A DNA stretch of 12,454 bases, taken from NCBI GenBank assembly GCA_016840965.1, contig JAEORI010000295.1, positions 1 through 12,454 of the forward strand, in the 5' to 3' direction. The stretch's first letter is position 1. Each line of letters begins with the position of its first letter. The notes under the pieces are model-generated. The model was given only the letters and a program-made list of their open reading frames with translations, was not told the DNA's origin and ran no database searches. Of the stretch, positions 261-12,198 are shown piece after piece. This DNA is from Candidatus Thorarchaeota archaeon (lineage in GTDB: Archaea; Asgardarchaeota; Thorarchaeia; Thorarchaeales; Thorarchaeaceae). The position numbers were made by a program, and so were the translations under genes.

Positions 261-1139
261 CTAACGGGATTCGACAGCACGAACAATCGTATCCGATCGA
301 TGTCGGATTTTGTTGTTATCTATAGAGAAGTTCAGTCCATCACGCTCTACTTTCAGGCTAGCAACCGATGTTGCATAGACTCCACAGTCGATAAGCGGAT
401 TTTCTGAGGCCAACTTAGCCGCGAACGCTGCAAGATAAACTGAGCCAACTCCTGATGAATCAATCACTTGCGAGGGATAAGAGGGGATAAAGCTAAAGTC
501 TTTTCCATCATAAATCAAACTACCCTTCTCTCCAAGAGTAATAACACAGACTTCAGAAGCCCATTCAACTATCAGCTCTGCTGCCAGAAAAGGATCGGAT
601 TCTCCTGTTATCAACTCTGATTCTAGTTGGTTTGGTTTAATAACATCCAAATAGCTTTGAGTCTTCTCTGTAACACTAAAATCACGGATGACATCCAAAC
701 GACCCTCTGAGTTTAGTTTTCGTAGTTGCGGGTCAAGAAAGACGAGAGCATCAGTTGAATTGCATATCCATTCAACCAATTCTGCACTCACCTCTTGCAG
801 GGATGGACTTAGTAACACAGCCTGTGTATCTAGAAATTCATCAGGTATATCTCGGATATTGATACGTTCTGGACTTACCAAAGTAGTCATATTTCTGTTG
901 AGAGTGGGATTACGAATTTCAACTGCATGTGTATGTTTTGCTTCGATTACAAAATACTCAGGTATGTCTAGCGCATCGATTCCTGCAATGAATTTGTTTT
1001 TCAGACTGTCATCAACAGAACTAACTAATGCTATTTGTTCAAGACCAATTTTTGTAGCGGTTGCAGCTGCGTAAACACTGGGGCTCGTAAGTTGTCCATT
1101 CCTGAATATAGGATTTCCAATCACAACAATTTCATACAT
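261..1139 (-). CDS. PfkB/ribokinase-fold protein with degenerate catalytic motif
   Basis: This 292-residue protein has the ribokinase-family layout: an N-terminal strand (YEIVVIGNP), a mid-protein KPNQLE motif (168-173), ITLGEKG (200-206) and the anion-hole region near 227-233. In active PfkB kinases the last motif reads D-T-x-G-A-G-D, whose final Asp is the catalytic base; here it is D-S-S-G-V-G-S, so the base is Ser. The N-terminal Gly-Gly substrate motif is also lost (TSPSVYAAA). Both features argue for a pseudokinase or an altered reaction. The nearest functional idea is the archaeal inositol-kinase-like branch, because the gene follows, and overlaps by 8 bases, a probable archaetidylinositol phosphate synthase. 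I chose the ATG at 1139 because GGGGTGA lies 7 bases upstream; a GTG at 1151 would add four residues. The substrate is unknown. Confidence 0.82.
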   Translation of the reverse strand: MYEIVVIGNPIFRNGQLTSPSVYAAATATKIGLEQIALVSSVDDSLKNKFIAGIDALDIPEYFVIEAKHTHAVEIRNPTLNRNMTTLVSPERINIRDIPDEFLDTQAVLLSPSLQEVSAELVEWICNSTDALVFLDPQLRKLNSEGRLDVIRDFSVTEKTQSYLDVIKPNQLESELITGESDPFLAAELIVEWASEVCVITLGEKGSLIYDGKDFSFIPSYPSQVIDSSGVGSVYLAAFAAKLASENPLIDCGVYATSVASLKVERDGLNFSIDNNKIRHRSDTIVRAVESR

Positions 1140-1860
1140 GCTTGTCGTCACCCCGTTCTTTTTCGGTTATAATTCTCCTTGCATAAACCAATCTCTGAAC
1201 TACTGTAATATGAGAGAGAATCCCAACAATAACAATACACAGAGTGAGGATGTTGGTAATATCAAGCATAACAAAGAAATCAAGTAGAATGGGGATTGGT
1301 GAAATGATACTAATCCAGATGTTTGTACCCGGGATAGCTAAAAGCAAAATGCCAGCTATAGTGAGTAGTAACTTTTCCTGACGCTCAGCTATTCCGACAG
1401 TACAACTTTCCATGCCTCCCACTGATTCAGCCTTGGCTCTGGTAAAACTAGCCATAATCATTCCAAAGAGCGAAAAGAAACCCCAAAACCATGGTACGAA
1501 TTTATCGCCTAAATTGTAAGGCCACCAGGGGATAGATACAGCAGATAATGGACCCATCATAAGCCCGACCATGAATAGAAACTCAGCATATCTGTCGAGG
1601 GTATGGTCGAAGGTCGCACCAAACTTTGATGCAAGACCTGCTGCACGTGCAACGGCACCATCAAACATGTCCATGACAATTGTGAGTAACATAAATGAAA
1701 GTCCAATGAATAGATCGCCAGACGCAAAAAACAAAGCGCTAACTAACGCAACTAATACTGTTAACCCGGTTATCATATTAGGAGTGATTCCAGTACGAGC
1801 AAGCGCCTTACCAACAGGCATCATTGCACGTTGATATCGCTCTCTTAAAGATCCAAGCAT
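1132..1860 (-). CDS. CDP-alcohol phosphatidyltransferase, probable archaetidylinositol phosphate synthase
   Basis: This is an integral membrane enzyme of 242 residues. The family signature D-x2-D-G-x2-A-R-x8-G-x3-D-x3-D is complete: D64, D67, G68, A71, R72, G81, D85 and D89, which bind metal and CDP-lipid. Hydrophobic stretches at about 28-48, 51-65, 90-108, 122-140, 164-185 and 190-222 fit the usual six transmembrane helices. The segment MASFTRAKAESVGG...GIAERQEKLLL resembles the inositol-phosphate/archaetidylinositol branch, which joins CDP-archaeol and myo-inositol 1-phosphate; this substrate assignment is inferred. The ATG at 1860 is chosen over the GTG at 1869 because the protein then starts MLGSLRERYQ, as in relatives, and GTGA sits 5 bases upstream. 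A TATA-like box lies at 1909-1921. The PfkB-like gene overlaps its 3' end. Confidence 0.88.
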   Translation of the reverse strand: MLGSLRERYQRAMMPVGKALARTGITPNMITGLTVLVALVSALFFASGDLFIGLSFMLLTIVMDMFDGAVARAAGLASKFGATFDHTLDRYAEFLFMVGLMMGPLSAVSIPWWPYNLGDKFVPWFWGFFSLFGMIMASFTRAKAESVGGMESCTVGIAERQEKLLLTIAGILLLAIPGTNIWISIISPIPILLDFFVMLDITNILTLCIVIVGILSHITVVQRLVYARRIITEKERGDDKHV

Positions 1861-1908
1861 ATATTTCACTAACCTACTAGTGTAAGCCGAATTTCGCCGA
1901 CTTGTATT

Positions 1909-1921
1909 CTATTAATAAACG
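1909..1921 (-). promoter_or_regulatory. Probable TATA box of the phosphatidyltransferase gene
   Basis: On the minus strand the 13 bases read CGTTTATTAATAG, close to an archaeal TATA element (TTTATTAA). The start codon at 1860 is about 50 bases downstream, allowing initiation near 1888 and a leader of roughly 28 bases. This suggests that the lipid gene and its PfkB-like partner can be transcribed separately from lysyl-tRNA synthetase. Inferred from spacing only. Confidence 0.4.
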
Positions 1922-1943
1922 TGTTGTGGGAAGCTTACAACAC
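1921..1943 (-). terminator. Hairpin across the lysyl-tRNA synthetase stop codon
   Basis: A perfect 7-base inverted repeat (GTGTTGT / ACAACAC) is separated by 9 bases and encloses the TAA at 1935-1937. On the transcribed strand it is followed by GTTTATTAAT, moderately T-rich. It could act as a transcription terminator or 3'-end stabiliser between this gene and the next promoter. The stem is short, so the role is tentative. Confidence 0.35.
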
Positions 1944-3605
1944 ACTCATTATGCGTTCGAGGACCCATTCACTACCTAAAAGGTTCAGGAATCCGCCTAA
2001 ACGAGGACCAGATTTTCTAGAAATTAGAATCCTATATAGAACAACAAAGGCACGTTTATCTTTCACACCCGATAACCGAGCAGTCTCAAAGATTTTGCCT
2101 TGTAAGGCTTCATCTTCCAAAGGGGGTCCCTTGAGAACCTCAACTACTTTTACTAGGAACTCACGGTCTTTATCAGATAGAGTGTTAACGATTTCATTCG
2201 GAACAGTTGCTGGAACCTCAACTCTGTCTCCTTCAGTCCCATACTCTAATGCCCATGTTCTTGCTCTGCTAAGCCTTATCGGAATTAACTCCCTTGCCTC
2301 AGAACTGATATCTTCGAGCCCAAACTGCTTTTTGAGGACTTGTTCGCATCGCTCCATTGTTGTTTTAGAACCAAGAATATTCTCTAGTTGAGAGGTGATA
2401 ATAGCAAATTTGAATGGAAGTTTTGGTACATATTTCTCAGGAACTTCACCTGCCAGACATAATGGGTAAAGAAGATTAGCAAATTCCTTCTGCTCTCCAG
2501 CTACCTCTTCAAGGCCATAGAAAATCCTCTCGAACCTATCAAACTCGTCAACCATTTCGGGTATCCTTTCTGGATGAATATCAATCGCTCTTTCAAGACC
2601 AGACTTCAACATCCAGTATCGATATAACTCAGGAGGTGCTATTGAGAGCCAGACTTTAGGACTAAATATAATCCCTTCTGATGTTGCCATATCCCTGCCT
2701 CCTATACGTACCCATTCAAATGGAACTTTAACTGGACCTTCCCATTCAAAGATGCGTCTTGATATCTCAAGTCCAGTGTCGAAAGAGCCACCTTTAACCG
2801 CGTGATCCTTTCCAGCAGGCTCACAGGTCACATTAAGAACAAACCATTTGGCAGGCCAATCAATACGCCAAGATAGCTTTACTCGAAGATTATTTAGAGA
2901 AGTTTCGGTGCTATAGCCACATGAGGGACATGTGAAGGAAACTTGGTCTGTTTCGGCATCATAATACGTAATCCTGTTTGGAGCAATCTCGCCCTTTGCA
3001 CCAGCTTGAATTCGACCACAAGATGGACAAATAACTGAAACAGGATACCAAGTTTTCATAGCTTCAATATAGGCAGTTTTCTGTTCCTCATTGAAATCAC
3101 GGGCGACGTATTCGATTAATATCTCACGAATGGTTTCAGTATTTTTCAAACATGTCCGAGTGGCTTCCAACATTTCAGGAGTTTCGTATAGCTTACTCTG
3201 CCAGATAATCTCTGGATTAACCCCAAATTCTGGGAAAGTATCGATGAGCTCATTAGCAGCATGTGCCCCAAAACTCTGGCAGCAACCAAACTCATCGGGC
3301 ACAGCAGAGTAAGGTTTCCCAACCCATTCGTCGAGTGACAAGGATACGCTAGGCGGAAATGACCGTACCGGATCATAATCATCTATTACAAAAAGGGTCA
3401 AAGCTTTCTTTCCAGCTTCGAGAAGTTTGCGTTTGATAACATCTGCAATAATAAGTTCACGAACAAATCCAATGTGAATAGTACCACTGGTGCTCTTGCC
3501 CGTTGAGATTCTATAAACATCAACATCGCGAGCTAGAACTTCATTAACAATATCACTTATCCAGTGTATTGAAAACTCGTCGTCCTGAGTTTCTTCAGAT
3601 GTCAT
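1935..3605 (-). CDS. lysS: Lysyl-tRNA synthetase, class I
   Basis: This 556-residue cytoplasmic enzyme charges tRNA-Lys with lysine and is of the archaeal class I type rather than class II. It shows the HIGH-type motif TIHIGF (H44-I45-G46), two CPSCG knuckles at 193-197 and 226-230 forming a zinc site, the strongly conserved block WRIDWPAKW followed by EPAGKDHAVKGGSFDTG (about 246-278), and the downstream SPKVWLSIAPPELYRYWM (315-332). A helical anticodon-binding region fills the rest, and the length is normal for the family. The KMSKS-type loop is degenerate: it reads R-D-M-A-T-S-E-G (304-311), with acidic residues where lysines usually sit. The ATG at 3605 is preferred over the TTG at 3608 because GAGGA lies 7 bases upstream. 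It follows the ABC permease gene after 49 bases. Archaeal identity is well supported. Confidence 0.95.
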   Translation of the reverse strand: MTSEETQDDEFSIHWISDIVNEVLARDVDVYRISTGKSTSGTIHIGFVRELIIADVIKRKLLEAGKKALTLFVIDDYDPVRSFPPSVSLSLDEWVGKPYSAVPDEFGCCQSFGAHAANELIDTFPEFGVNPEIIWQSKLYETPEMLEATRTCLKNTETIREILIEYVARDFNEEQKTAYIEAMKTWYPVSVICPSCGRIQAGAKGEIAPNRITYYDAETDQVSFTCPSCGYSTETSLNNLRVKLSWRIDWPAKWFVLNVTCEPAGKDHAVKGGSFDTGLEISRRIFEWEGPVKVPFEWVRIGGRDMATSEGIIFSPKVWLSIAPPELYRYWMLKSGLERAIDIHPERIPEMVDEFDRFERIFYGLEEVAGEQKEFANLLYPLCLAGEVPEKYVPKLPFKFAIITSQLENILGSKTTMERCEQVLKKQFGLEDISSEARELIPIRLSRARTWALEYGTEGDRVEVPATVPNEIVNTLSDKDREFLVKVVEVLKGPPLEDEALQGKIFETARLSGVKDKRAFVVLYRILISRKSGPRLGGFLNLLGSEWVLERIMSVL

Positions 3606-3654
3606 CAAACAGTCCTCATGCGAATCTGAAGTAATAATCTAAAGAACGTTGCCA

Positions 3655-5508
3655 TCAAGATTGGAATTCTGATACTATCAAATCATTTCTTGTTGCAAAG
3701 AAGACATAGGTCGGAATTGCTGCTAGTAGAATTACTACAATCATTGTTATTAGAACAGTAAGGATAGATACAGGAAGATATGCTAGGGAGGGGACAGCAG
3801 CTTCTGGTATCAATGCATAGATACTGAGCAGAGTACTCACGAATAAAGCAGGAATCCCTGCTCTAAGTCCAACATCCAATCCTTCAGCGATCATTACTTT
3901 TGCTAAGAAGGAAGGTTTTGCTCCTACAGACCTCATAATAATGTAGTCACGAAGACGTCCAAAGACTGAAACTAATAGATAATTCATGAGACTCAAAAAA
4001 GCACTTAGTAGAGTAACGATTGCTAGTGGATTTATCAGAGCCCAAATAGCATCGATTATTATGAGATTTCCTTCCAAAACCTCTTCCTGTTTGAAGCTAT
4101 CAAACCCATAGCTCTCAGCAAGATTATCAATTTGCGAAATGACCGAATCATCATACTCCTCAAGTTGAACAAGAAGTAGATTTGTGCCAGATACACCAAA
4201 GGTGCTTTGTAGCTGTGAAAGGTCCATCAATGCCATCATGCCACCATTAAGAATGTCAAAAGCTTGCGCATTGATTTCCAAAGATGTGCCTTGTACGCCT
4301 AGACTCTGTACGAGAGGATCCACGAAGAGGTCAGTAGCCATCTTTCCTCCAATCCAGACTTGCTGAGTATTATCTATACTTCGACCCTCAAAATACCAAT
4401 CAGAAATAGTTGTATCCCAGTTTACACCAACCAATACAGCTGAGCTTGTACGATCCAGTCCAATGTATTCATATTGTTCAAGTTCCTCATTCCAAAGGAT
4501 TGCAGGCATCTCTTCTACTTCAGAGTATACAACAAGACGCGTTTCAATTCTATAAACACCTAAGACCTCATCAAGATCATTAACTAACTGGGTGGGTATT
4601 ATATCTCCTCCACTGAGGAAATTAAATGAGTCATTCAAAGGTGTTCCATAAAGGGAATATGAGTTATAGTATAGATTCAAGAGAGTTGGATTTCCAATAG
4701 CTACAACATTTGAGCCCATGGAGCGGGTAACATAGGAGATAGACGTTGCGTGCACAACACCTCCACCTATCCAAAGAAGTGAAGCAATTGTAAAACTAAG
4801 GAAAAGGGAGATAACTGTTCGACGAGTTCCTCTTAATCTTCTGCCTGTTCCTTTGGTGGCAATACGAAAGGGCAGCCCAAAACTATCGAGAAATCCTGCT
4901 ACACGAACTTTTGAACCTACATCAGGATTCAATGCTAAGGAGGGAGATTCTTGAACAGTATCGTAAATTGGTTTCTGGGCAGAAAAATATCCAGCTATAA
5001 TTAACACAATTGCGAGAAAGGATATTTGTAATACTGGAAAGGATCCTGCAAGTTGAAGTGTTGGAACCATTGTGCCCAACCAAATCATTCCAACTATGTA
5101 CAGGACGGTACCAAGCCCGAGACCAAGTACAATACTGGCAAGAAGTAATATGACTGATTGTGCCATGAAAAAGTCAAAAATTGCATCAAGAAGAGTGCCA
5201 ATCGACTTCATTAGACCAATATCACGTCTACGAGTGACCATCTCCAATGATATTGTAGTAGATACAACTACTGCGCCTAACACAAACACAAGTAGCAGAA
5301 TCGTCCATACAAAGGTCGAAAAGAATGTGCCAAATGATGATGATAAAGCACTTGCGACAGCAAAAGAAGAAACATCTAGTAAGACATTACTAAACAAAAA
5401 TACGAATGTTGTAGCAGTCACTATGCTTGTTAGTGAAATTATAGTGAGGGTAGTCCGGAATGGACGTCTCTTGAGGTCTTTTGAAGCAAACATCTGATGG
5501 TCAGTCAT
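3655..5508 (-). CDS. ABC transporter permease, two FtsX-like membrane halves
   Basis: This 617-residue protein has about eight transmembrane helices. The first half carries helices near 20-42, 64-86, 113-141 and 157-175, with the cytoplasmic coupling segment RRRDIGLMKSIG (93-104). The second half has a helix near 232-254, a large extracytoplasmic domain (about 255-480) and three helices near 488-515, 545-572 and 582-608, again with a coupling segment (GRLRDYIIMRSVGAK). This repeats the FtsX/MacB core, so one chain may provide both halves of the channel. Such proteins usually convert ATP hydrolysis into mechanical work on lipids, lipoproteins, peptides or cell-surface factors rather than classical uptake. 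Its ATG overlaps the ATPase stop by 8 bases, a sign of coupled translation; GGAGTG lies 10 bases upstream. The substrate is not evident. Confidence 0.9.
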   Translation of the reverse strand: MTDHQMFASKDLKRRPFRTTLTIISLTSIVTATTFVFLFSNVLLDVSSFAVASALSSSFGTFFSTFVWTILLLVFVLGAVVVSTTISLEMVTRRRDIGLMKSIGTLLDAIFDFFMAQSVILLLASIVLGLGLGTVLYIVGMIWLGTMVPTLQLAGSFPVLQISFLAIVLIIAGYFSAQKPIYDTVQESPSLALNPDVGSKVRVAGFLDSFGLPFRIATKGTGRRLRGTRRTVISLFLSFTIASLLWIGGGVVHATSISYVTRSMGSNVVAIGNPTLLNLYYNSYSLYGTPLNDSFNFLSGGDIIPTQLVNDLDEVLGVYRIETRLVVYSEVEEMPAILWNEELEQYEYIGLDRTSSAVLVGVNWDTTISDWYFEGRSIDNTQQVWIGGKMATDLFVDPLVQSLGVQGTSLEINAQAFDILNGGMMALMDLSQLQSTFGVSGTNLLLVQLEEYDDSVISQIDNLAESYGFDSFKQEEVLEGNLIIIDAIWALINPLAIVTLLSAFLSLMNYLLVSVFGRLRDYIIMRSVGAKPSFLAKVMIAEGLDVGLRAGIPALFVSTLLSIYALIPEAAVPSLAYLPVSILTVLITMIVVILLAAIPTYVFFATRNDLIVSEFQS

Positions 5509-6253
5509 GACGAGTTAACACTCCACGGTCCATGTTATAATGGTGAATTTTGGACTGTTTGATTATGCCTTCATCATGGGTCATGACGATTACAGCCTTT
5601 CCGCGCTTGTTTAAATCCATCAGAAGTTCACGTATCATCTGACCGCTATGTCCATCAAGATTGGCTGTAGGTTCGTCAGCTAAAATGATTGGGGGGTCAT
5701 TAGCCATTGCACGTGCTATTGCTATTCTTTGTTGTTCTCCAGAACTAAGCTGCCAAGGAAGATGATCTGCGCGATGCTCCATCTCAACTCTCTCAAGGAG
5801 TTTCATTGCTTCATCTCTTAATGCAGAACTGCTTCTTTCTGAGAGTTGCATTGGAAACATAACATTTTCAATTGCAGTCAAGGTGGAAACCAAATTATAG
5901 CTCTGAAAAATGAAACCCGTATTATTAAGTCTAAAAGACGCTCGGAATGATTCATCATAATCGTTAATTGGCACATCCATAACAAAAACCCGTCCCTGAG
6001 ATGCCATGTCGATTGCACCGATAATGTTCAGAAGCGTGGTTTTCCCGGAGCCAGATTTGCCAGATATAACAACAAAATCCCCAGCATCGACTACGAGATT
6101 TACACCTATGACAGCATTAATCGCAACATTGCCCAGTTTGAAAGTTCGATGGACATCTCGGAGTAGAACAGCATGTTGAACTTCTTCAAGATCTTCAACA
6201 TCCAAATCATCTCGCGTATAATCTATTGCATCAAGATAGTCTTCATCAGCCAT
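5501..6253 (-). CDS. ABC transporter ATP-binding protein, LolD/MacB type
   Basis: This 250-residue cytoplasmic ATPase drives the adjacent FtsX-type permease. All nucleotide-binding motifs are intact: Walker A GKSGSGKT (65-72), Q-loop FQSYNLV with Q117, signature LSSGEQQ (169-175), Walker B IILADEP with the catalytic Glu (189-195), the D-loop (NLD, 198-200) and switch His226 in MTHDE. The stretch DEPTANLD is typical of the LolD/MacB/FtsE group. An acidic extension of about 28 residues (rich in D and E) precedes the fold. The ATG at 6253 is chosen because AAGGTGG stands 6 bases upstream; reading further to 6394 would overlap the upstream regulator gene by 77 bases and add a segment unlike the family. 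It is cotranscribed with the permease and probably with the regulator, 64 bases upstream. Confidence 0.95.
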   Translation of the reverse strand: MADEDYLDAIDYTRDDLDVEDLEEVQHAVLLRDVHRTFKLGNVAINAVIGVNLVVDAGDFVVISGKSGSGKTTLLNIIGAIDMASQGRVFVMDVPINDYDESFRASFRLNNTGFIFQSYNLVSTLTAIENVMFPMQLSERSSSALRDEAMKLLERVEMEHRADHLPWQLSSGEQQRIAIARAMANDPPIILADEPTANLDGHSGQMIRELLMDLNKRGKAVIVMTHDEGIIKQSKIHHYNMDRGVLTRHD

Positions 6254-6317
6254 GTTGTGCCACCTTGGATTGTACCCCGATGACTGTAAATCCAAGATAA
6301 GCATAGGGGTTGGACAA

Positions 6318-7133
6318 TTAATGTACCAAAATATCCTGACAATCGATAGCCGAGCGTGCCCAATCAGTGAGCAACACAGGTTTCTCCCTACCAAAAACCT
6401 TCACAATGCGAAGAATTTCAGCTTCTAATAGAGTGCTGATATAATAGGATATGAGACTCTTATCAACATCTAGAGTTTTGCTGATGATGGCTTGAGTCGT
6501 TTGTCCATTTGAGGCACATTCACTGAGAATTGAATTAATAGTAGGGTTGCGGGCTAGCGCTGTCAAGAGCATAACTTTCTCATCTGAAGAAAAGTCTGGA
6601 GGGAAGATATGCCGGACATTGCCATTCCGTAGAGATACTACTTGTCCGTCTTTCTCCAACAGCCTAAGATGATACTGTAATGCGCCCATAGCACAACCAA
6701 TTATTCGGTGAAGTTCTCGAAGGTGTATACCAGGATTAACAGTAACCTCGTCAAGAACTCGTTCTCTTAGCTTCTGCAGTCTGCGTTCGTCACGTCGTTC
6801 CATTGATAATGTTCCAATAGCAATCATAAAGAGTCCAAAATCAATAGTAGTGAAGAGCGCATTAGACCAAGCTAAATTAGTACCTCCTGAGTTCCCAGTG
6901 AAGAAGCCAATGTCCATGGAAAAATTCTCTACTCTCGTCGCACTACCTATCAATATTGATAGTGCTTGAAATTTAGCATAACTACTGTCTCCACCCAATG
7001 TGGGGGATAGGTCCTGGGCAATAGGCTCAACACCACCAAAACTAAAGCCAGATAGGACTACACCTAATACCCCCCAAGTGAGGAGGACAAGTGAAAGTCC
7101 AACTAGGATATGTTTGGTGAACTGCCTATTCAT
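6318..7133 (-). CDS. Membrane-anchored transcriptional regulator with two winged-helix domains
   Basis: This 271-residue protein starts with a transmembrane helix (about 8-30), a loop of about 60 residues that would face outside, a second helix (about 92-110) and a basic, charged connector (MERRDERRLQKLRER). Two cytoplasmic winged-helix-like domains follow: about 122-180 (LRELHRIIGCAMGALQYHLRLLEKDG, ArsR/MarR-like, with wing VVSLRNGNVRHIF) and about 184-265 (TTQAIISKTLDVDKSLISYYISTLLEA). The layout suggests a one-component sensor that reads an envelope signal and binds DNA at the membrane. It stands immediately before the ABC genes, so they are its likely targets. ATG 7133 is preferred to ATG 7166 because an A/T-rich palindrome resembling a TATA box at 7170-7184 would lie at a sensible distance from it. 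The second HTH assignment is less certain than the first. Confidence 0.8.
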   Translation of the reverse strand: MNRQFTKHILVGLSLVLLTWGVLGVVLSGFSFGGVEPIAQDLSPTLGGDSSYAKFQALSILIGSATRVENFSMDIGFFTGNSGGTNLAWSNALFTTIDFGLFMIAIGTLSMERRDERRLQKLRERVLDEVTVNPGIHLRELHRIIGCAMGALQYHLRLLEKDGQVVSLRNGNVRHIFPPDFSSDEKVMLLTALARNPTINSILSECASNGQTTQAIISKTLDVDKSLISYYISTLLEAEILRIVKVFGREKPVLLTDWARSAIDCQDILVH

Positions 7134-7169
7134 GTTCAAACATCCACACTCAAACCCTAATAGCATTTT

Positions 7170-7205: not shown

Positions 7206-7760
7206 CTAAGTAGCACCTCGTGCAGGGTAGGTCAATGTAATCTTAAAACTGCAAGACTCCTGCCCAGCTGACATGCATGTGTCCTCAATGACAAGCAACT
7301 TTTCATATTCAATTCTGTTGAAATCTGTTAGATATTCGAGAACAGCTTCTATGAAGCCTTTCAGAAAGTAGCATGATGGTTCTTCAGATTCATAACCAGA
7401 GGCATATGGATTATCACCAATCTCAATTATCGCCTCTTCGTCTAACCATAGCTTGTAGAGTTTAGAAATCTTAATGTCACCAAAAGGCACAATCAAAGTT
7501 TCAAGAGCCATCTTGATGAACTCAATTATGCCCTTGAAATCCCCAGGAGGCTTCTGTTTTCCTACTTTGAAGTATTCTCGTTGCGCTTCTAGTCCTGCAA
7601 GGCGCCCAGCAGAATAATAAAGATCCTTTACTCGGTCTGGGAACATCACTGCAATTCTGCTTCCAAGCTTGTTCCAAGTCTTGGCAAAGAATGCAACCAT
7701 AAGATCACGTTCCTTGAGCCTACTCTGCCACCATGGAATCACCTTTTCGCCACTAGACAT
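7206..7760 (-). CDS. V4R-domain protein with canonical zinc-type motif
   Basis: This 184-residue soluble protein has no signal peptide or membrane span. Its C-terminal half is a V4R (4-vinyl reductase) fold: C130 followed by YFLKGFIEAVLEYL, then VIEDTCMSAGQESCSF with E159, C162 and C170. The spacing C...E-x2-C-x7-C matches the zinc-binding site described for the sensor domains of XylR/DmpR/MopR-type regulators, so a metal-stabilised small-molecule pocket is plausible. No output domain is attached, so it may act by partner binding. The N-terminal part (WWQSRLKERDLMVAFFAKTW) is helical and not recognised. ATG 7760 has GAGG 8 bases upstream. It follows the smaller V4R gene by 68 bases and precedes the membrane regulator by 72 bases. 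It is clearly different from the two cassette V4R proteins. The ligand is unknown. Confidence 0.75.
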   Translation of the reverse strand: MSSGEKVIPWWQSRLKERDLMVAFFAKTWNKLGSRIAVMFPDRVKDLYYSAGRLAGLEAQREYFKVGKQKPPGDFKGIIEFIKMALETLIVPFGDIKISKLYKLWLDEEAIIEIGDNPYASGYESEEPSCYFLKGFIEAVLEYLTDFNRIEYEKLLVIEDTCMSAGQESCSFKITLTYPARGAT

Positions 7761-7828: not shown

Positions 7829-8302
7829 TTACACTAAACGGACATTCCAAACGCAAACGTCTGCACCAGTTGCTCTACTCATTTCTTGGAAAACTTTAGC
7901 CTCAACGCCTTTGAACTCGAGTATGGATTCAATGATACCACTAAATATCTCGCAATACCCGAATCCTCGCATTCCTTCAAGATTGACTTCCTGACACCAA
8001 ACGCAATTATCATCAGTTATGCGTACAGACCCTCGAGCTGTCTTCATATCGATATCCTTGGGCTTCTTGTCAAAAAGAACCTTGTAGAGGATTTCTATGA
8101 GTTTTGTAACATCTTCACGTGTTGTAACGTTATCTTTCGTCTTCTCGACAATCTCGGTGTTGAGGTAGATTTGTTGACCAATTTCTTTTCCGAGGTCTCG
8201 AAGGCTCTGATTTGCTTCATCAATACTAGAGGTATTTGATAGAATATTCTCAACATAATGAGAATAGAGGCTAAGTAGTAAAGGATTGTCTATCTTGGGC
8301 AT
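7829..8302 (-). CDS. Small V4R/Bet3-like protein, cassette copy A
   Basis: This 157-residue soluble protein has a helical N-terminal half and a C-terminal V4R-like core with four cysteines, C100, C103, C117 and C150 (C-x2-C-x13-C-x32-C). The same spacing recurs in the paralogue at 10681-11184; by hand I count about 23 identities in the last 61 residues. Core features shared by both include GYC/QYC-x3-SG, then FQE, then G-x2-VC-x-W. V4R domains bind small molecules or metal and share their fold with the Bet3 subunits of eukaryotic TRAPP complexes. ATG 8302 (MPKIDN) is chosen because AGGTG lies 8 bases upstream; a longer frame from the TTG at 8341 would overlap the preceding gene. It follows the Roadblock protein gene by 22 bases, almost surely in one transcript. 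Exact function unknown. Confidence 0.75.
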   Translation of the reverse strand: MPKIDNPLLLSLYSHYVENILSNTSSIDEANQSLRDLGKEIGQQIYLNTEIVEKTKDNVTTREDVTKLIEILYKVLFDKKPKDIDMKTARGSVRITDDNCVWCQEVNLEGMRGFGYCEIFSGIIESILEFKGVEAKVFQEMSRATGADVCVWNVRLV

Positions 8303-8324
8303 AGCATTCACACCTAATTGATAT

Positions 8325-9332
8325 CTAGAGTGTCTTCCCAATCACTTTAAGACCGTGCTTTCTGTATTTTGCGATTGTTTGTACCACTTTTGGTGTTGGG
8401 ATCTTCAATGACTCTGCAATTTGTTCTGTTGTTCGAGAGCCATCACACATGCGGATGATGTTTTGATCTTCGACAGCTACTTTACTCATATCACCCTCGA
8501 AACGAGGACATTTTACATACCGGCCCACTGTACCTATTCTCTCGTCTTGAGTTACGACTTGTTCAGCAGAAACTGCTGGCACTGTGATTATTCCTTTTGA
8601 AGCGCCCCATTTCAGCAGATCAATGACTCGATTATTGGGTTGAAACATTGAGTCTGCTATTTTATCTACACTAATGCATCCATCCACAAGCATGAGAACG
8701 TCAAATCCAAAGTTACGATATAGTTGCTTCATCTCACGGTAAAGTTCAGAATCTAGTGATAGCGCACTTGAGTATTGTGTACCGCGCTCAGGAATTGTTC
8801 CAGGCAGTACATTGAACGATTCTGGAGGTGGTAATTCCGTAGGGATTGGTTCAGGTGTTGATTTAATGAGAGGGGGAGTAGGAATGGTTTCGATAGTTGA
8901 TGGTGTTTCTTTTGGTACTATTGATTCAACAGAGGCGGCTTTAATTGCGATACTCTCTAGTACTTGAAGATTAGATTCAACAGATTCTTCAAACTCCTCA
9001 GGCGGAGGTGGAAGTACTATTCCTTCCAGCAATCGTAGAACATTCTTAGTCTTGGCAATTGCTAAACCAAGTTGAAGCTCTGGCACATATAAGACAGTCA
9101 AAATCCAGTTGTCGTCAACGGGGGATAAAACAACAAGTCCACGGTCAGTATCGATTGTCATGAGACGCAAATCAGATTTGTAAAGGTTAATGCTATCCTT
9201 CACTCGTGGGAACAACTCATCTGGAAACGCAAAACTAACAAATGGTCTACCGACCTTTGTCATCAATGAATACCCCAATACCTGGTCATCGAATCTTAAT
9301 TTAGATAGAGCTCGCTCCAAATCTTTGGACAT
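8325..9332 (-). CDS. Roadblock/LC7-like domain fused to two winged-helix-like domains, cassette copy A
   Basis: In this 335-residue protein, residues 1-107 have the Roadblock/LC7 pattern: a first helix (LERALSKLRF), paired strands around VLGYSLMTKVGRPFVSF, a middle helix, strands LVVLSPVDDNWILTVLYV, and a last helix (AKTKNVLRLLEG). Residues 108-180 are a flexible linker rich in Pro, Glu and Ser. Two compact helical units follow: 193-252 (DSELYREMKQLYRNFGFDVL, then DGCISVDKIADSM) and 275-335 (CPRFEG, then DGSRTTEQIAESLKIP), both winged-helix-like in shape. Roadblock proteins usually pair with small Ras-like GTPases or form scaffolds; none is encoded in the window. ATG 9332 is chosen because GAGGT sits 7 bases upstream and because the paralogue aligns from there; a longer frame to 9449 has no family support. 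Domain calls are by eye. Confidence 0.72.
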   Translation of the reverse strand: MSKDLERALSKLRFDDQVLGYSLMTKVGRPFVSFAFPDELFPRVKDSINLYKSDLRLMTIDTDRGLVVLSPVDDNWILTVLYVPELQLGLAIAKTKNVLRLLEGIVLPPPPEEFEESVESNLQVLESIAIKAASVESIVPKETPSTIETIPTPPLIKSTPEPIPTELPPPESFNVLPGTIPERGTQYSSALSLDSELYREMKQLYRNFGFDVLMLVDGCISVDKIADSMFQPNNRVIDLLKWGASKGIITVPAVSAEQVVTQDERIGTVGRYVKCPRFEGDMSKVAVEDQNIIRMCDGSRTTEQIAESLKIPTPKVVQTIAKYRKHGLKVIGKTL

Positions 9333-9488
9333 ATTCTTTACCTCACCGACTCTGGTCTGACTGATGGTTGCTTGGACGTGGTATTCTCCGAGAGTCGTCT
9401 GAAAAGGATTGTGGTCACAAAGTTCGGTTTTCCAATCACGACTTGTCAAAAACGGTTAAGAGGGGTTCCAACATGTCGAATAAACATA
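9333..9488. other. Divergent intergenic region between the Roadblock gene and the zinc-ribbon membrane gene
   Basis: These 156 bases separate two genes transcribed away from each other and must hold both promoters. I find no convincing TATA box. Minus-strand AAAACCGAA at 9423-9431 recurs next to the TATA box of the membrane gene at 10052-10576. An AGAGGGG Shine-Dalgarno-like site at 9459-9465 points to the ATG at 9473, which is in a different frame from the membrane protein. Confidence 0.4.
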
Positions 9489-10055
9489 ATGAAGAACTTT
9501 ATTGGCGGCTTATCCGGGGTTGTTGTTGGCTCAATAATTATTGTGGTTGGGCGTGGATTAGTACCACCATTGTATCCAGAGCCATTTAACATGGTATGGT
9601 TTCTATTAGTGGGAAATCATGCAATTCAAGCAACTCTGTTTGAACCTATTAAGCCATCGGTTTTAGTATCATACATTCTAACGTGGGTCAGTATCGGACT
9701 AGTAATTGGCATTTTTTCCAAACCCGGATGGAATACTGTTAGGTCCGCAATTTGGGTTGGGTTGATCAGCGCTATCTTTACCTTGATTTCTATACTACTT
9801 CTGGAGCCTGAATTTTGGGTTAGTGCAACTAGGAATTTCGATTTACTGTTTCAGTTTGTGACATCCTTGGTTCTATCTATACTTACATTACCATCTGCAT
9901 TGCCTGTATCAATACTAATTGAGCGATTAAAACAGCAAGCAGAGCCTTCAATTCCGTCGAGGATTGAAACAGTGTGTGAGTGTGGTGCAACATTCAAATC
10001 AAATCCTCTGATATGCTCAGAGTGTGGAAGAACTTTGGGTCGAGAAGATACCTAA
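9489..10055 (+). CDS. Small membrane protein with C-terminal zinc ribbon
   Basis: This 188-residue protein has about four hydrophobic helices (near 5-24, 57-76, 84-105 and 117-145), followed by a cytoplasmic tail holding C163-x-C165-x10-C176-x2-C179, a zinc-ribbon arrangement. Both the tail and the membrane part are unrecognised beyond that. The glycine-rich helix pattern around SIGLVIGIFSKPG and GLISAIFTLIS resembles the minus-strand neighbour (TGGLVAGLMTKEIFPG, SAIIGAFLTWL), so the two may be distant paralogues. It ends by overlapping the neighbour's stop codon by 3 bases. ATG 9489 lacks a clear Shine-Dalgarno site; a strong one serves an ATG at 9473 in another frame, which opens only 38 codons. 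A leaderless message or a sequence error near 9475-9500 could explain this. Function unknown; a metal-dependent membrane adaptor is one idea. Confidence 0.7.
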   Translation: MKNFIGGLSGVVVGSIIIVVGRGLVPPLYPEPFNMVWFLLVGNHAIQATLFEPIKPSVLVSYILTWVSIGLVIGIFSKPGWNTVRSAIWVGLISAIFTLISILLLEPEFWVSATRNFDLLFQFVTSLVLSILTLPSALPVSILIERLKQQAEPSIPSRIETVCECGATFKSNPLICSECGRTLGREDT

Positions 10056-10576
10056 CGATCCCTTGTTATTGCTCCACCTAGGAGTCCACCAATTGCACAT
10101 GCTATTGCTGGGTATATTGTTCCCTCTAGAGATACCTGCATGATTAAGAGAGAACCTTGTTGAAAAATTGAGGCAATATCACCGCCGTGAAGAATCATGA
10201 AGAATAGAAGCCATGTTAAAAATGCACCAATGATAGCAGAGAAAACTGCAGAAAGGATTCCAGGGAATATCTCCTTTGTCATTAACCCTGCGACTAATCC
10301 ACCTGTCCCCCACGCTAACCACATGAGAACAGTTGCACCAGTGGCTCCAATTGGGTAAAGTGAACCCAGACTAGTTGAGCCTAGAAAAGCTGGTGCTGGA
10401 TATAGTATAGTGCAAGTTACCGCAAGTCGTATTTCAAGTTCACCCGTCATAAGAAAGTCTTCTACAATTGTTGATGCAATAAGGTCATTGGGCATAAAGT
10501 TTCCAAACATCAACACTACAAATGTTATTGCAAATGCTGTGATTAATCCCATAAGCGTGCCTAAACCTTGACCCAA
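10052..10576 (-). CDS. Small glycine-rich integral membrane protein
   Basis: This 174-residue hydrophobic protein has about five membrane segments (near 7-27, 50-68, 78-98, 104-129 and 152-171) with many small residues (Gly, Ala, Ser) at helix faces. No catalytic motif is seen and I do not recognise a family. It starts with TTG at 10576, supported by a perfect GGAGG 7 bases upstream; a nearby ATG at 10590 reads another frame and stops after nine codons. The Shine-Dalgarno is half of the palindrome GGAGGTCCTCC (10578-10588). The gene stands alone on the minus strand between the two Roadblock/V4R cassettes and has its own TATA-like promoter. Its stop overlaps that of the convergent zinc-ribbon membrane gene, of which it may be a diverged relative lacking the ribbon. 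Confidence 0.75.
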   Translation of the reverse strand: MGQGLGTLMGLITAFAITFVVLMFGNFMPNDLIASTIVEDFLMTGELEIRLAVTCTILYPAPAFLGSTSLGSLYPIGATGATVLMWLAWGTGGLVAGLMTKEIFPGILSAVFSAIIGAFLTWLLFFMILHGGDIASIFQQGSLLIMQVSLEGTIYPAIACAIGGLLGGAITRDR

Positions 10577-10612
10577 CGGAGGTCCTCCATGAACTTCTTT
10601 CTAACCACTATC

Positions 10613-10634
10613 TTCGGTTATTCGGTTTTATACC
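10613..10634 (-). promoter_or_regulatory. TATA box with adjacent direct repeat, promoter of the membrane protein gene
   Basis: On the minus strand GGTATAAAACC (10624-10634) is a good archaeal TATA box. It is about 50 bases before the TTG start, allowing initiation near 10603 and a leader of about 27 bases containing GGAGG. Immediately downstream, the 8-base units AAACCGAA and TAACCGAA stand in tandem (10613-10628). Their position between TATA and the predicted start site is typical for a repressor site. Inferred from spacing. Confidence 0.5.
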
Positions 10635-10680
10635 TATGCCGGATGAGTAGCTAGACTTCAAAGACTTTTAATATATGGTC

Positions 10681-11184
10681 TTATCGAAGTGAGAGGGTCC
10701 AAGTACAAACCTCATCACCCAATGCCCTGCAGGATTCCTGAAAACTCTCAGCTTGAAATCCTCGAAGTTTCATGACAGCATCAAACACACCACTCACAAT
10801 GACGCAGTACTGCAAGCCAGGCATGTCTGTTATGTGAACCCCAGCGCATATTGGACAGTCTGCATCTGTAAACTTGATACTTCGTTTATCATCACTAATC
10901 CAGATGTCTGTAAATTCTTGTCCAGAATTCACCTTGTACGCAAGTTGTAGAGTGTTTGCGAATTCATGGAACTTGCCGGCATGTTGACGAATTCTGTCAG
11001 CATAGTCCATTAGGAGTGTTTCTCCGACCCGAAAACCAATGTCTTTCATTTTTCGATTTATTTCATCAACACTGACACTAGTACTCATGAGAAGGTTCAT
11101 CAACTCTCTATAGCTAGCTTGAAACAGAACTTTACTCACTTTGTCAGTCATGAAGTTCCAGGCAATTTTTCCTTTTACACCCAT
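10681..11184 (-). CDS. Small V4R/Bet3-like protein, cassette copy B
   Basis: This 167-residue soluble protein is paralogous to the one at 7829-8302, with the same four-cysteine spacing: C110, C113, C127 and C160. The shared core runs from D-x2-C-x2-C through QYC-x3-SG, then FQE and VC-x-W. The N-terminal half is helical (SYRELMNLLMSTSVSVDEINRKMKDIG) and aligns with copy A around the SIDEANQSLRDLG segment. ATG 11184 is preferred over the TTG at 11196 because GGAGGT abuts the TTG directly but stands 11 bases before the ATG. It begins 21 bases after the Roadblock gene stop, reproducing the 22-base gap of the other cassette. V4R folds bind small molecules or metal, or serve as Bet3-like assembly subunits; which applies here is unknown. 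A second free cysteine, C152, is specific to this copy. Confidence 0.75.
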   Translation of the reverse strand: MGVKGKIAWNFMTDKVSKVLFQASYRELMNLLMSTSVSVDEINRKMKDIGFRVGETLLMDYADRIRQHAGKFHEFANTLQLAYKVNSGQEFTDIWISDDKRSIKFTDADCPICAGVHITDMPGLQYCVIVSGVFDAVMKLRGFQAESFQESCRALGDEVCTWTLSLR

Positions 11185-11205
11185 TTGTTTCTTCAACCTC
11201 CAGTA

Positions 11206-12198
11206 TCAGAATCTTGACGCTTTGTCTATGCGAATGAATCTGACGGATTTTCCACGATAGGGGATAATCATCTGCAACGCTTCAAAATAGGGTATACCCA
11301 TTTCCGTAGCTATTTCCTGCAATGTCTTCTTTCCATTGCACCTCTCAAGTATAGCCCGATGCTGCTTCTTTACCTTGTCAATCTTTCCTTCAAATAAAGG
11401 CAACTCTATAATTTCTCTCTGACTTGGTTCCAGTCCTTCAGGGCATTCGACCCATAGAATATTACGTGAAACACACCATTTCACAATCTCAACAATCTTC
11501 TCAACCGGTCTTGCCAAGAGTTCAGCCAATTTATAGACCGACATCTTCTCGTCAGCAATAAGAAGAACATCGATGCCAACATTAGCAAAAAGCCGTTTTA
11601 TTGATAAATTGAGCTCCGAATCCAAGGTTACTGAGTCCTTGTAGTTATCACCTCGGTGCACAATGCATCCATGTTTAACCTCCACCATTTCTTTAGGCGT
11701 TTCAGATAGGGGTACAGTAGCAACAGTTTCCATTGTTGCCTGTTCTTCTGGTTCATGAGGTAAAACATCCTCTGTAATCATATCTGGGGATACATCAGAG
11801 GTTGTGGACTCGGATTCAACCACCGGTTTTTCCTCTATAGGTAAAATCACTTCTTCTGCAGCCATAGAAGCTGGGGGAGGTGGTAGGTTAACCTGAACAA
11901 GAAGATCAACAACAGCTTTTGTTCGTGATAGAGCGCCACCAAGTTGAAAATCAGGTTCGAATAAGACAGCAAGTACCCAGCGAGAATCGACTCTTGCTAG
12001 AATAACAATACCACTCTTGGTCATGATGTTAACGAGTTTCAAGTCGCTTCCATGGATTCTAAGAGTACCTTTGATTTGGGGTAATACTTCATCAGGTAGA
12101 GAAAATGAGAGGAAGGGATGACCATCACTTGTTATTAGAGCATATCCACTAACTGCCTCATCAAACTTGAGTTTTGTTAGGACTCGCTCCAACTCCAA
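11206..12198 (-). CDS. Roadblock/LC7-like domain fused to two winged-helix-like domains, cassette copy B
   Basis: This 330-residue paralogue of the protein at 8325-9332 has the same order: Roadblock-like domain 1-103, a linker opening with LPPPP (105-109) and rich in Glu, Thr and Pro, then two helical winged-helix-like units at about 193-250 and 266-325. In the first unit I count by hand about 22 identities in 57-58 aligned residues; shared landmarks are LDSEL, WVL/WIL in the Roadblock sheet and FEG ahead of the last unit. The TTG at 12198 is the likely start: GGTGA lies 7 bases upstream and homology with copy A begins there. An ATG at 12273 would add 25 Cys-rich residues, overlap the upstream kinase gene by 29 bases, and has its AGGAG directly abutting. 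A TATA-like CTTAAAG lies at 12253-12259. A partner GTPase is not in the window. Confidence 0.72.
   Translation of the reverse strand: MELERVLTKLKFDEAVSGYALITSDGHPFLSFSLPDEVLPQIKGTLRIHGSDLKLVNIMTKSGIVILARVDSRWVLAVLFEPDFQLGGALSRTKAVVDLLVQVNLPPPPASMAAEEVILPIEEKPVVESESTTSDVSPDMITEDVLPHEPEEQATMETVATVPLSETPKEMVEVKHGCIVHRGDNYKDSVTLDSELNLSIKRLFANVGIDVLLIADEKMSVYKLAELLARPVEKIVEIVKWCVSRNILWVECPEGLEPSQREIIELPLFEGKIDKVKKQHRAILERCNGKKTLQEIATEMGIPYFEALQMIIPYRGKSVRFIRIDKASRF

Follow-up and report, generated by a model that had tools for sequence, protein, structure and literature searches.

The core of the eukaryotic TRAPP complex, which acts on Rab GTPases, includes Bet3/TRAPPC3, Trs33/C6 and Trs31/C5 together with the longin-fold subunits Bet5, Trs23 and sedlin. 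Asgard archaea carry Roadblock, longin, TRAPPC3-like and Ras-family proteins, and it has previously been unclear which of these cooperate. Here we describe a two-gene cassette that is present twice in a 12,454-nucleotide stretch of DNA from Candidatus Thorarchaeota archaeon (contig JAEORI010000295.1; the entire stretch is called the window below). In each copy, a gene for a predicted Roadblock-fold protein carrying winged helices (A) precedes a gene for a protein related to TRAPPC3 (B). The locus gives TRAPPC3-like proteins a specific partner, which recurs in several Asgard lineages, is fused to the TRAPPC3-like protein in one of them, and lies immediately behind Ras-family GTPases in another. 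As a result, the origin of TRAPP and of GATOR-type GTPase regulators becomes a directly testable question.

The V4R half of the pair is already known, since crystal structures of orthologs of B1 have been published as Thor-TRAPPC3 (7yh2 and 7yh3; Tran et al. 2024, PMC10933270). These proteins are 83–88% identical to B1, bind zinc on four cysteines, and form a homodimer with internal cavities, and B1 is expected to share the fold, zinc site, cavity and homodimer (PMC10933270). No mention of A as a partner in the operon, or of a second cassette A2-B2, was found in the text of that report (supplement not covered). The relation between Bet3 and V4R proteins had been drawn earlier (PMC2253512), and an “NPRL2-like longin domain” has been placed among the Asgard signature proteins (PMC9834061). 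The parts are already known. The pairing of A with B, and its duplicate, were not found described in the open-access literature searched on Asgard TRAPP, V4R, Roadblock and longin proteins (subscription papers and supplements not covered), and the available text of PMC10936438, PMC12872458, PMC8534245 and PMC8813620 holds nothing bearing on the pair.

The members of the two cassettes in the window are the following.

8325..9332, minus strand: A1, 335 amino acids, predicted Roadblock-linker-winged helix-winged helix protein; its ATG start is common to most aligned orthologs
8997..9332, minus strand: Roadblock domain of A1, residues about 1–112
8577..8786, minus strand: first winged helix of A1 (wH1), residues about 183–252
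8328..8525, minus strand: second winged helix of A1 (wH2), residues about 270–335, from the structure model
7829..8302, minus strand: B1, TRAPPC3/Bet3-family (V4R-fold) protein, ortholog of Thor-TRAPPC3
11206..12198, minus strand: A2, paralog of A1 with a TTG start, syntenic in Thorarchaeota
10681..11184, minus strand: B2, paralog of B1 that retains an N-terminal MGxKG motif, as do most other Asgard B proteins

An initial annotation of this DNA had proposed two cassettes of the same orientation at 9332-7829 and 12198-10681, and these coordinates are correct. Both cassettes are on the minus strand, with 22 bases between A1 and B1 and 21 bases between A2 and B2. The claim that both members are paralogous holds far beyond chance: A1 and A2 are identical at 119 of 354 positions (34%; E 9e-67) in an alignment over almost their full length, and B1 and B2 at 41 of 154 positions (27%; E 2e-27). 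The annotation had also called B a four-cysteine protein, and the residues concerned are C100, C103, C117 and C150 in B1, with the same four in B2. All four are found in 34/34 B1 and 30/30 B2 sequences and in 30 of the 32 non-Thor B rows, where “non-Thor” denotes a B that falls outside the Thorarchaeota clade of the B tree described below. The MGxKG motif is present in 22/30 B2 and 25/32 non-Thor B sequences and in 0/34 B1 rows. The possibility that this stretch of B2 and the other B proteins forms a membrane-inserting amphipathic helix was rejected, as the hydrophobic moment did not exceed that of shuffled sequences for 6 of 6 peptides.

The predicted fold of each protein had been fixed beforehand as a check on the annotation, and the models, which are of A1 and B1, assign a Roadblock fold to A and a TRAPPC3/V4R fold to B. 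For A1, the structure model has a Roadblock fold that is supported by comparison with solved structures. The Pfam Roadblock family is listed for neither A1 nor A2 at E≤1, and therefore we use the term “Roadblock fold” without claiming membership in the Pfam family; the earlier Roadblock assignment survives for the fold and not for the profile. B1 lies over the cut-off of the Pfam TRAPP family PF04051 (E 4.7e-11; 43.1 bits vs. 27). A profile comparison of B1 with 7yh3 gives E 1.7e-74, and in Foldseek comparisons the B1 model matches the same entry (E 1.8e-24, 86% identity) and mouse Bet3 (1wc8; E 1.4e-8, TM 0.86). B2 is under the TRAPP cut-off (E 4e-5; 23.8 bits), and its V4R match reaches only E 0.26.

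To our knowledge, GATOR1 contains no Bet3-like subunit. A may resemble the GATOR1 subunits NPRL2 and NPRL3 in having a Roadblock or longin domain followed by tandem winged helices; VIA matches point this way, as do Foldseek alignments of A1, which span both of its domains on chains of GATOR1/SEA entries. Npr2 and Npr3 have been described as a longin domain with a triad of winged helices (PMC3521125). Unlike those proteins, A1 and A2 have no Pfam NPR2 match at E≤1, and membership of A in the NPRL2 family by sequence was rejected. The NPR2 cut-off is passed in 0 of 227 Asgard genomes, and 10 of the 227 have matches at E≤0.01. Four of these ten loci were viewed: three (L084-L086) encode a longin-like-winged-helix protein, as judged by eye, with NPR2 below cut-off, and no such protein was seen at the fourth (L083). 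When the PDB was searched with the L084 protein, NPRL2 came up only at E 0.7.

Adjacency of A and B is conserved in relatives, as the initial annotation had anticipated. The Thorarchaeota set comprises the window and 34 loci, of which 30 are titled Thorarchaeota, two Lokiarchaeota (L013, L031) and two “archaeon” (L008, L012); all 34 were counted as Thorarchaeota on synteny. A1 and B1 are adjacent and co-oriented in 34/34 loci with both genes (the L033 contig ends inside A1), and A2 and B2 likewise in 30/32 loci with A2. Larger A2-B2 gaps reflect open reading frame starts and labels, as checked for L004, L006, L013 and L016. Because the entire surrounding block is syntenic, adjacency within Thorarchaeota alone proves little.

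A wider survey took in 227 Asgard genomes, 78 of which have B profile matches at E≤0.001 and 44 of which have a Pfam TRAPP match above cut-off. For every non-Thor B match with E<1e-12, and for some weaker ones, the surrounding stretch was examined; at least six were left out of the weak set (G067 C3, G068 C5, G069 C23, G070 C82, G156 and G227 C196). Of the 32 strong non-Thor B genes, 19 are immediately preceded by a co-oriented A-type gene (gap −7 to 149), the end of which matches wH2 of A. The same arrangement precedes 0/17 weak V4R genes (Fisher p 2.6e-5, uncorrected for kinship and with an incomplete weak set) and 0/277 other genes of the same stretches, these being longest-open-reading-frame picks rather than gene calls. 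The part that A has in common with the upstream genes is wH2 (A4 profile positions about 245–311), and weak matches resembling wH2 also turn up in many further Asgard genomes. The other 13 strong B genes comprise nine in tandem B-B pairs (G005, G075, G076, G078), two G082 loci, one in G227, and the G182 fusion discussed below.

The N-terminus of the upstream gene varies. It appears Roadblock-like in seven genomes (G004, G006, G079-G082, G169; read by eye at loci L050, L051, L059, L067, L069, L070 and L072) and longin-like in G180, G181 and G172 (the last by eye; L060 was likewise read by eye). In eight genomes (G067-G074; L046-L049, L063-L066) it is a CxxC-bearing domain rather than Roadblock, and in G174 the contig start makes it unreadable. 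Among the loci read by eye, L050, L051, L060, L067, L069 and L072 give no match to the Pfam Roadblock or longin families at E≤1. Judged from gene sequences, A-B pairing is conserved in Thorarchaeota and takes an altered form in other Asgard lineages. Separately, L074-L076 and L081 hold tandem pairs of divergent V4R genes with a 17-base overlap, and those of L075 and L076 come after what, by eye, resembles a HypE gene.

In Thorarchaeota, the order PfkB-A2-B2-M1-M2-A1-B1-C-D-ABC-permease-LysRS-AIPS is retained to the contig limits in the window and the 34 loci, with small exceptions; for example, L013 is without a PfkB label, and L010 and L031 have ~1.3 kb extra between C and D. Three further members of this block are referred to below.

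10052..10576, minus strand: M1, small membrane protein (by eye), between both cassettes
9372..10055, plus strand: M2, membrane protein whose C-terminal tail resembles a zinc ribbon (both features by eye), between both cassettes
7206..7760, minus strand: C, third V4R protein, divergent and encoded directly behind B1 (Pfam V4R E 2.7e-9)

C has no significant similarity to B1, and its above-cut-off V4R match covers the second half of the protein alone. Its conservation across Thorarchaeota is strong, the gene being labelled in 32/35 loci.

The view that the cassette was co-duplicated as a unit fits the trees. In the B tree, built from 68 of 96 B rows, B1 and B2 of Thorarchaeota form a clade of their own (100/100) that excludes the 32 other Asgard sequences, and B1 is nested within B2 at the end of a long branch (2.39). 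A quick A tree separates A1, A2 and eight proteins consisting of Roadblock-wH1, although support for A1 is only 50. These patterns are as expected for a pair duplicated as a unit in the thorarchaeotal stem. In G067-G074, a Roadblock-wH1 protein without the last winged helix is encoded on another contig (matching the A profile at E 4e-33 to 1e-29), with M2 homologs beside its gene in 8/8 cases and M1 homologs in 7/8, and the gene preceding B is of the CxxC-wH2 type. Given that Roadblock-wH1 with M1/M2, and CxxC-wH2 before B, are separate in these genomes, A of Thorarchaeota looks like a fusion of Roadblock-wH1 and wH2 that would have united M1, M2 and B at one locus.

The second cassette is not stable everywhere. 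At L019 (2176-3214) and L020 (4790-5809), A2 is intact, but of B2 there is a C-terminal remnant in which 28 or 22 residues match; B2 is being lost from the second cassette of this lineage. At L013 (5012-6417), A2 extends across two frames, through a frameshift or an assembly error, and a nearly whole B2 follows. In the Thorarchaeota-type genome G214, a large contig carries the A1-B1 cassette (L061 8152-9637) and its block without A2-B2; genome-wide, B matches and strong A matches number one each, and no further A or B was found in the 18-kb stretch. Because the G214 B groups with B1 in a quick tree (27 of 96 B rows plus G214), this genome has more probably lost A2-B2 than kept a state from before the duplication. 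A single B match, due to an assembly break or a loss, is also seen in several other Thorarchaeota-type genomes, such as G187, G193, G215, G220, G221 and G224.

A link to GTPases is provided by G180 and G181, which carry three and two Ras-family genes, respectively (Pfam Ras E 3.4e-40 to 1.4e-42). In both (L043 4244-7864, L044 5281-8281), the same-strand order is GTPases, longin-like-winged-helix gene, B, and an AAA/vWA gene, which is of the MoxR type (Pfam, G180 copy). The gaps in G180 and G181 are 178 and 279 from GTPase to longin-like-winged-helix gene and 149 and 98 from that gene to B. In G182, a longin-like domain 38% identical to the one in G180 is joined to B in one 296-amino-acid protein without a winged helix. 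Fuz_longin_1 matches occur in two relatives (E 4.5e-5 and 5.3e-5, both below cut-off). Matches to Sybindin, which we take to be the TRAPP longin-fold family, occur in 5 of 12 longin-like proteins scanned (E 0.0026 to 0.16, below cut-off; P0253 and L052 may be one protein), and none was found at E≤1 in the other seven, including P0241, L052 and L060. A PDB search with the longin profile A5 retrieved no longin chain, and thus the longin reading of G180, G181 and G182 depends on weak Pfam matches and on relatives. A longin-TRAPPC3 fusion has been reported from Heimdall archaea (PMC10933270). Two other proteins combine related parts: L079 (2923-3780) encodes 285 amino acids in which a longin-like domain (by eye) and a more divergent V4R domain are combined, and L085 (1-858) has a single frame in which a Rab-like GTPase comes after what may, by eye, be a longin-like N-terminus.

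By analogy with their eukaryotic relatives, the products of A and B likely work together in controlling small GTPases at membranes. We give an even chance to the specific proposal that each cassette encodes a two-part platform for small-GTPase control, which we favor given the folds, the pairing, the run of GTPase genes in G180/G181, the longin-B fusion, and the parallels to TRAPP and NPRL2. On this proposal, A and B would bind one another, and the Roadblock domain of A (replaced in some lineages by a longin-like domain) would dock a Ras-family GTPase. B would sense or hold a hydrophobic ligand in its cavity and thereby link the switching of the GTPase to a signal from membrane or lipid, and the winged helices would serve as protein-binding scaffold modules, as in NPRL2/NPRL3. 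With two diverged copies, homomers or heteromers of the paralogs could form, much as eukaryotic TRAPP contains paralogous Bet3-type subunits. The membrane link is suggested by the M1/M2 homologs beside the Roadblock-wH1 gene of another group.

Genes and models suggest a resemblance to eukaryotic TRAPP, a guanine nucleotide exchange factor (GEF) for Rab. Both systems have a Bet3-fold part and a Roadblock/longin-fold part, and the Bet3-type subunits are paralogous in both. However, A has winged helices, the archaeal system has two genes in place of a many-subunit particle, and the partner in Thorarchaeota is Roadblock and not longin. A bolder version, which we offer tentatively and consider doubtful, is that the cassette is a proto-TRAPP: a two-subunit particle encoded by an operon, with a Roadblock/longin arm bearing NPRL2-type winged helices and a Bet3-type ligand-binding subunit, that regulated Ras-family GTPases at archaeal membranes and was duplicated before eukaryotic TRAPP and GATOR/Ragulator were built from the same parts.

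Several observations weigh against a GTPase platform. Pairing itself has exceptions, namely the 13/32 strong non-Thor B genes without A upstream, the CxxC-bearing N-termini of eight genomes, the A2 genes without B2 at L019 and L020, and the single cassette of G214. GTPase adjacency is confined to one lineage, as the related G180 and G181 count once, and with 22–37 Ras matches per genome (three Asgard genomes) it could be due to chance. A profile of the five G180/G181 GTPases has no match in the Thorarchaeota loci (the window was outside this search), and among the window proteins that were scanned there was no whole-protein small-GTPase match. The nearest Ras match to a cassette of Thorarchaeota is ~17.6 kb away in G002 and ~53 kb away in G214. 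The mean net charge of wH2 is +5.4 in A1 and +4.0 in A2 of Thorarchaeota, which fits nucleic-acid binding. We know of no test of any member for GEF or GTPase-activating protein activity. Ligands have been measured only in relatives of B, and the Asgard proteins that the 2024 study followed in HeLa cells, Thor-TRAPPC3 among them, stayed off membranes (PMC10933270).

In the bacterial and archaeal MglA-MglB system, a Roadblock protein regulates a Ras-like GTPase and the two are often co-encoded (PMC3521125). In contrast, the Roadblock gene of the cassette pairs with TRAPPC3 and not with a GTPase, and an MglAB-like GTPase gene in the operon is absent from the Thorarchaeota loci and found only in G180 and G181. 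In MK-D1, small GTPase genes are generally outside operons with Roadblock, longin or TRAPPC3 genes, and the genome layout hampers the matching of GTPases to their regulators (PMC10933270).

In the regulators MsvR and PoxR, the V4R domain is combined with a DNA-binding domain. The main rival explanation is a ligand-sensing transcription regulator. The cassette would then be a split one-component system in which B senses a hydrophobic ligand or redox state, A binds DNA via its winged helices, and the Roadblock domain only dimerises. The V4R fold is shared with the MsvR and PoxR/DmpR regulators, and the metal site of PoxR lies near the same place (PMC10933270). Weak matches to the MsvR model (B2, E 9e-4, 19.1 bits; C, E 5e-4, 19.8 bits; cut-off 220; B1 not listed) point the same way, as do the A gene at L069, which scores above the cut-off for HTH_5, a DNA-binding family (E 7.5e-5), and a net-positive wH2 in A1, A2 and 3/13 non-Thor A genes (+4 to +7). 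However, net charge over the last 60 residues is only 0 to +3 in the other 10/13, and in several of these the third helix is hydrophobic. The charge of wH1 ranges from neutral to slightly acidic, and the PqqD type, which binds peptides, is among the weak matches. Moreover, A and B are separate polypeptides, the partner starts with Roadblock or longin, the neighbors of the pair vary among lineages, and the G182 longin-like-B fusion has no winged helix. On balance, we regard transcriptional control as somewhat unlikely.

We find it distinctly unlikely that A and B, with M1, M2 and C, form a GTPase-free sensor of membrane ligands or lipids around the lipid-synthesis and ABC-transporter genes of Thorarchaeota. 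The association with M1/M2 in two Asgard groups, the syntenic genes for an archaetidylinositol-phosphate-synthase-like protein and a permease of the ABC/FtsX type, and the hydrophobic ligands in the cavities of mouse TRAPPC3 and PoxR (PMC10933270) would suit such a sensor. On the other hand, no match to the Thorarchaeota profiles of these lipid-synthesis and permease genes lies beside A-B in the non-Thor stretches examined (whose contigs are often short), and Roadblock and longin have been described as GTPase-interacting folds (PMC3521125, PMC10933270). Finally, that A and B are neighbors through inherited synteny only, their products acting separately, would explain the ~13-gene synteny that makes adjacency within Thorarchaeota weak evidence, as well as the loss of B2 beside a retained A2 at two loci, but it is very improbable given that the non-Thor pair persists despite different flanks and different A N-termini and is fused once (G182, longin-like domain and B).

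Other genes of the window keep company with the cassettes. The region 261-3608 encodes a class I lysyl-tRNA synthetase and the archaetidylinositol-phosphate-synthase-like protein (below the NCBIfam cut-off), both syntenic with the cassettes. A PfkB kinase gene is syntenic in part of the loci, in addition to the PfkB gene located upstream of A2. The region 3655-7166 encodes D, a double helix-turn-helix protein with likely membrane segments (by eye), a LolD/FtsE-type ATPase and an FtsX-like permease, and these three are conserved together in Thorarchaeota.

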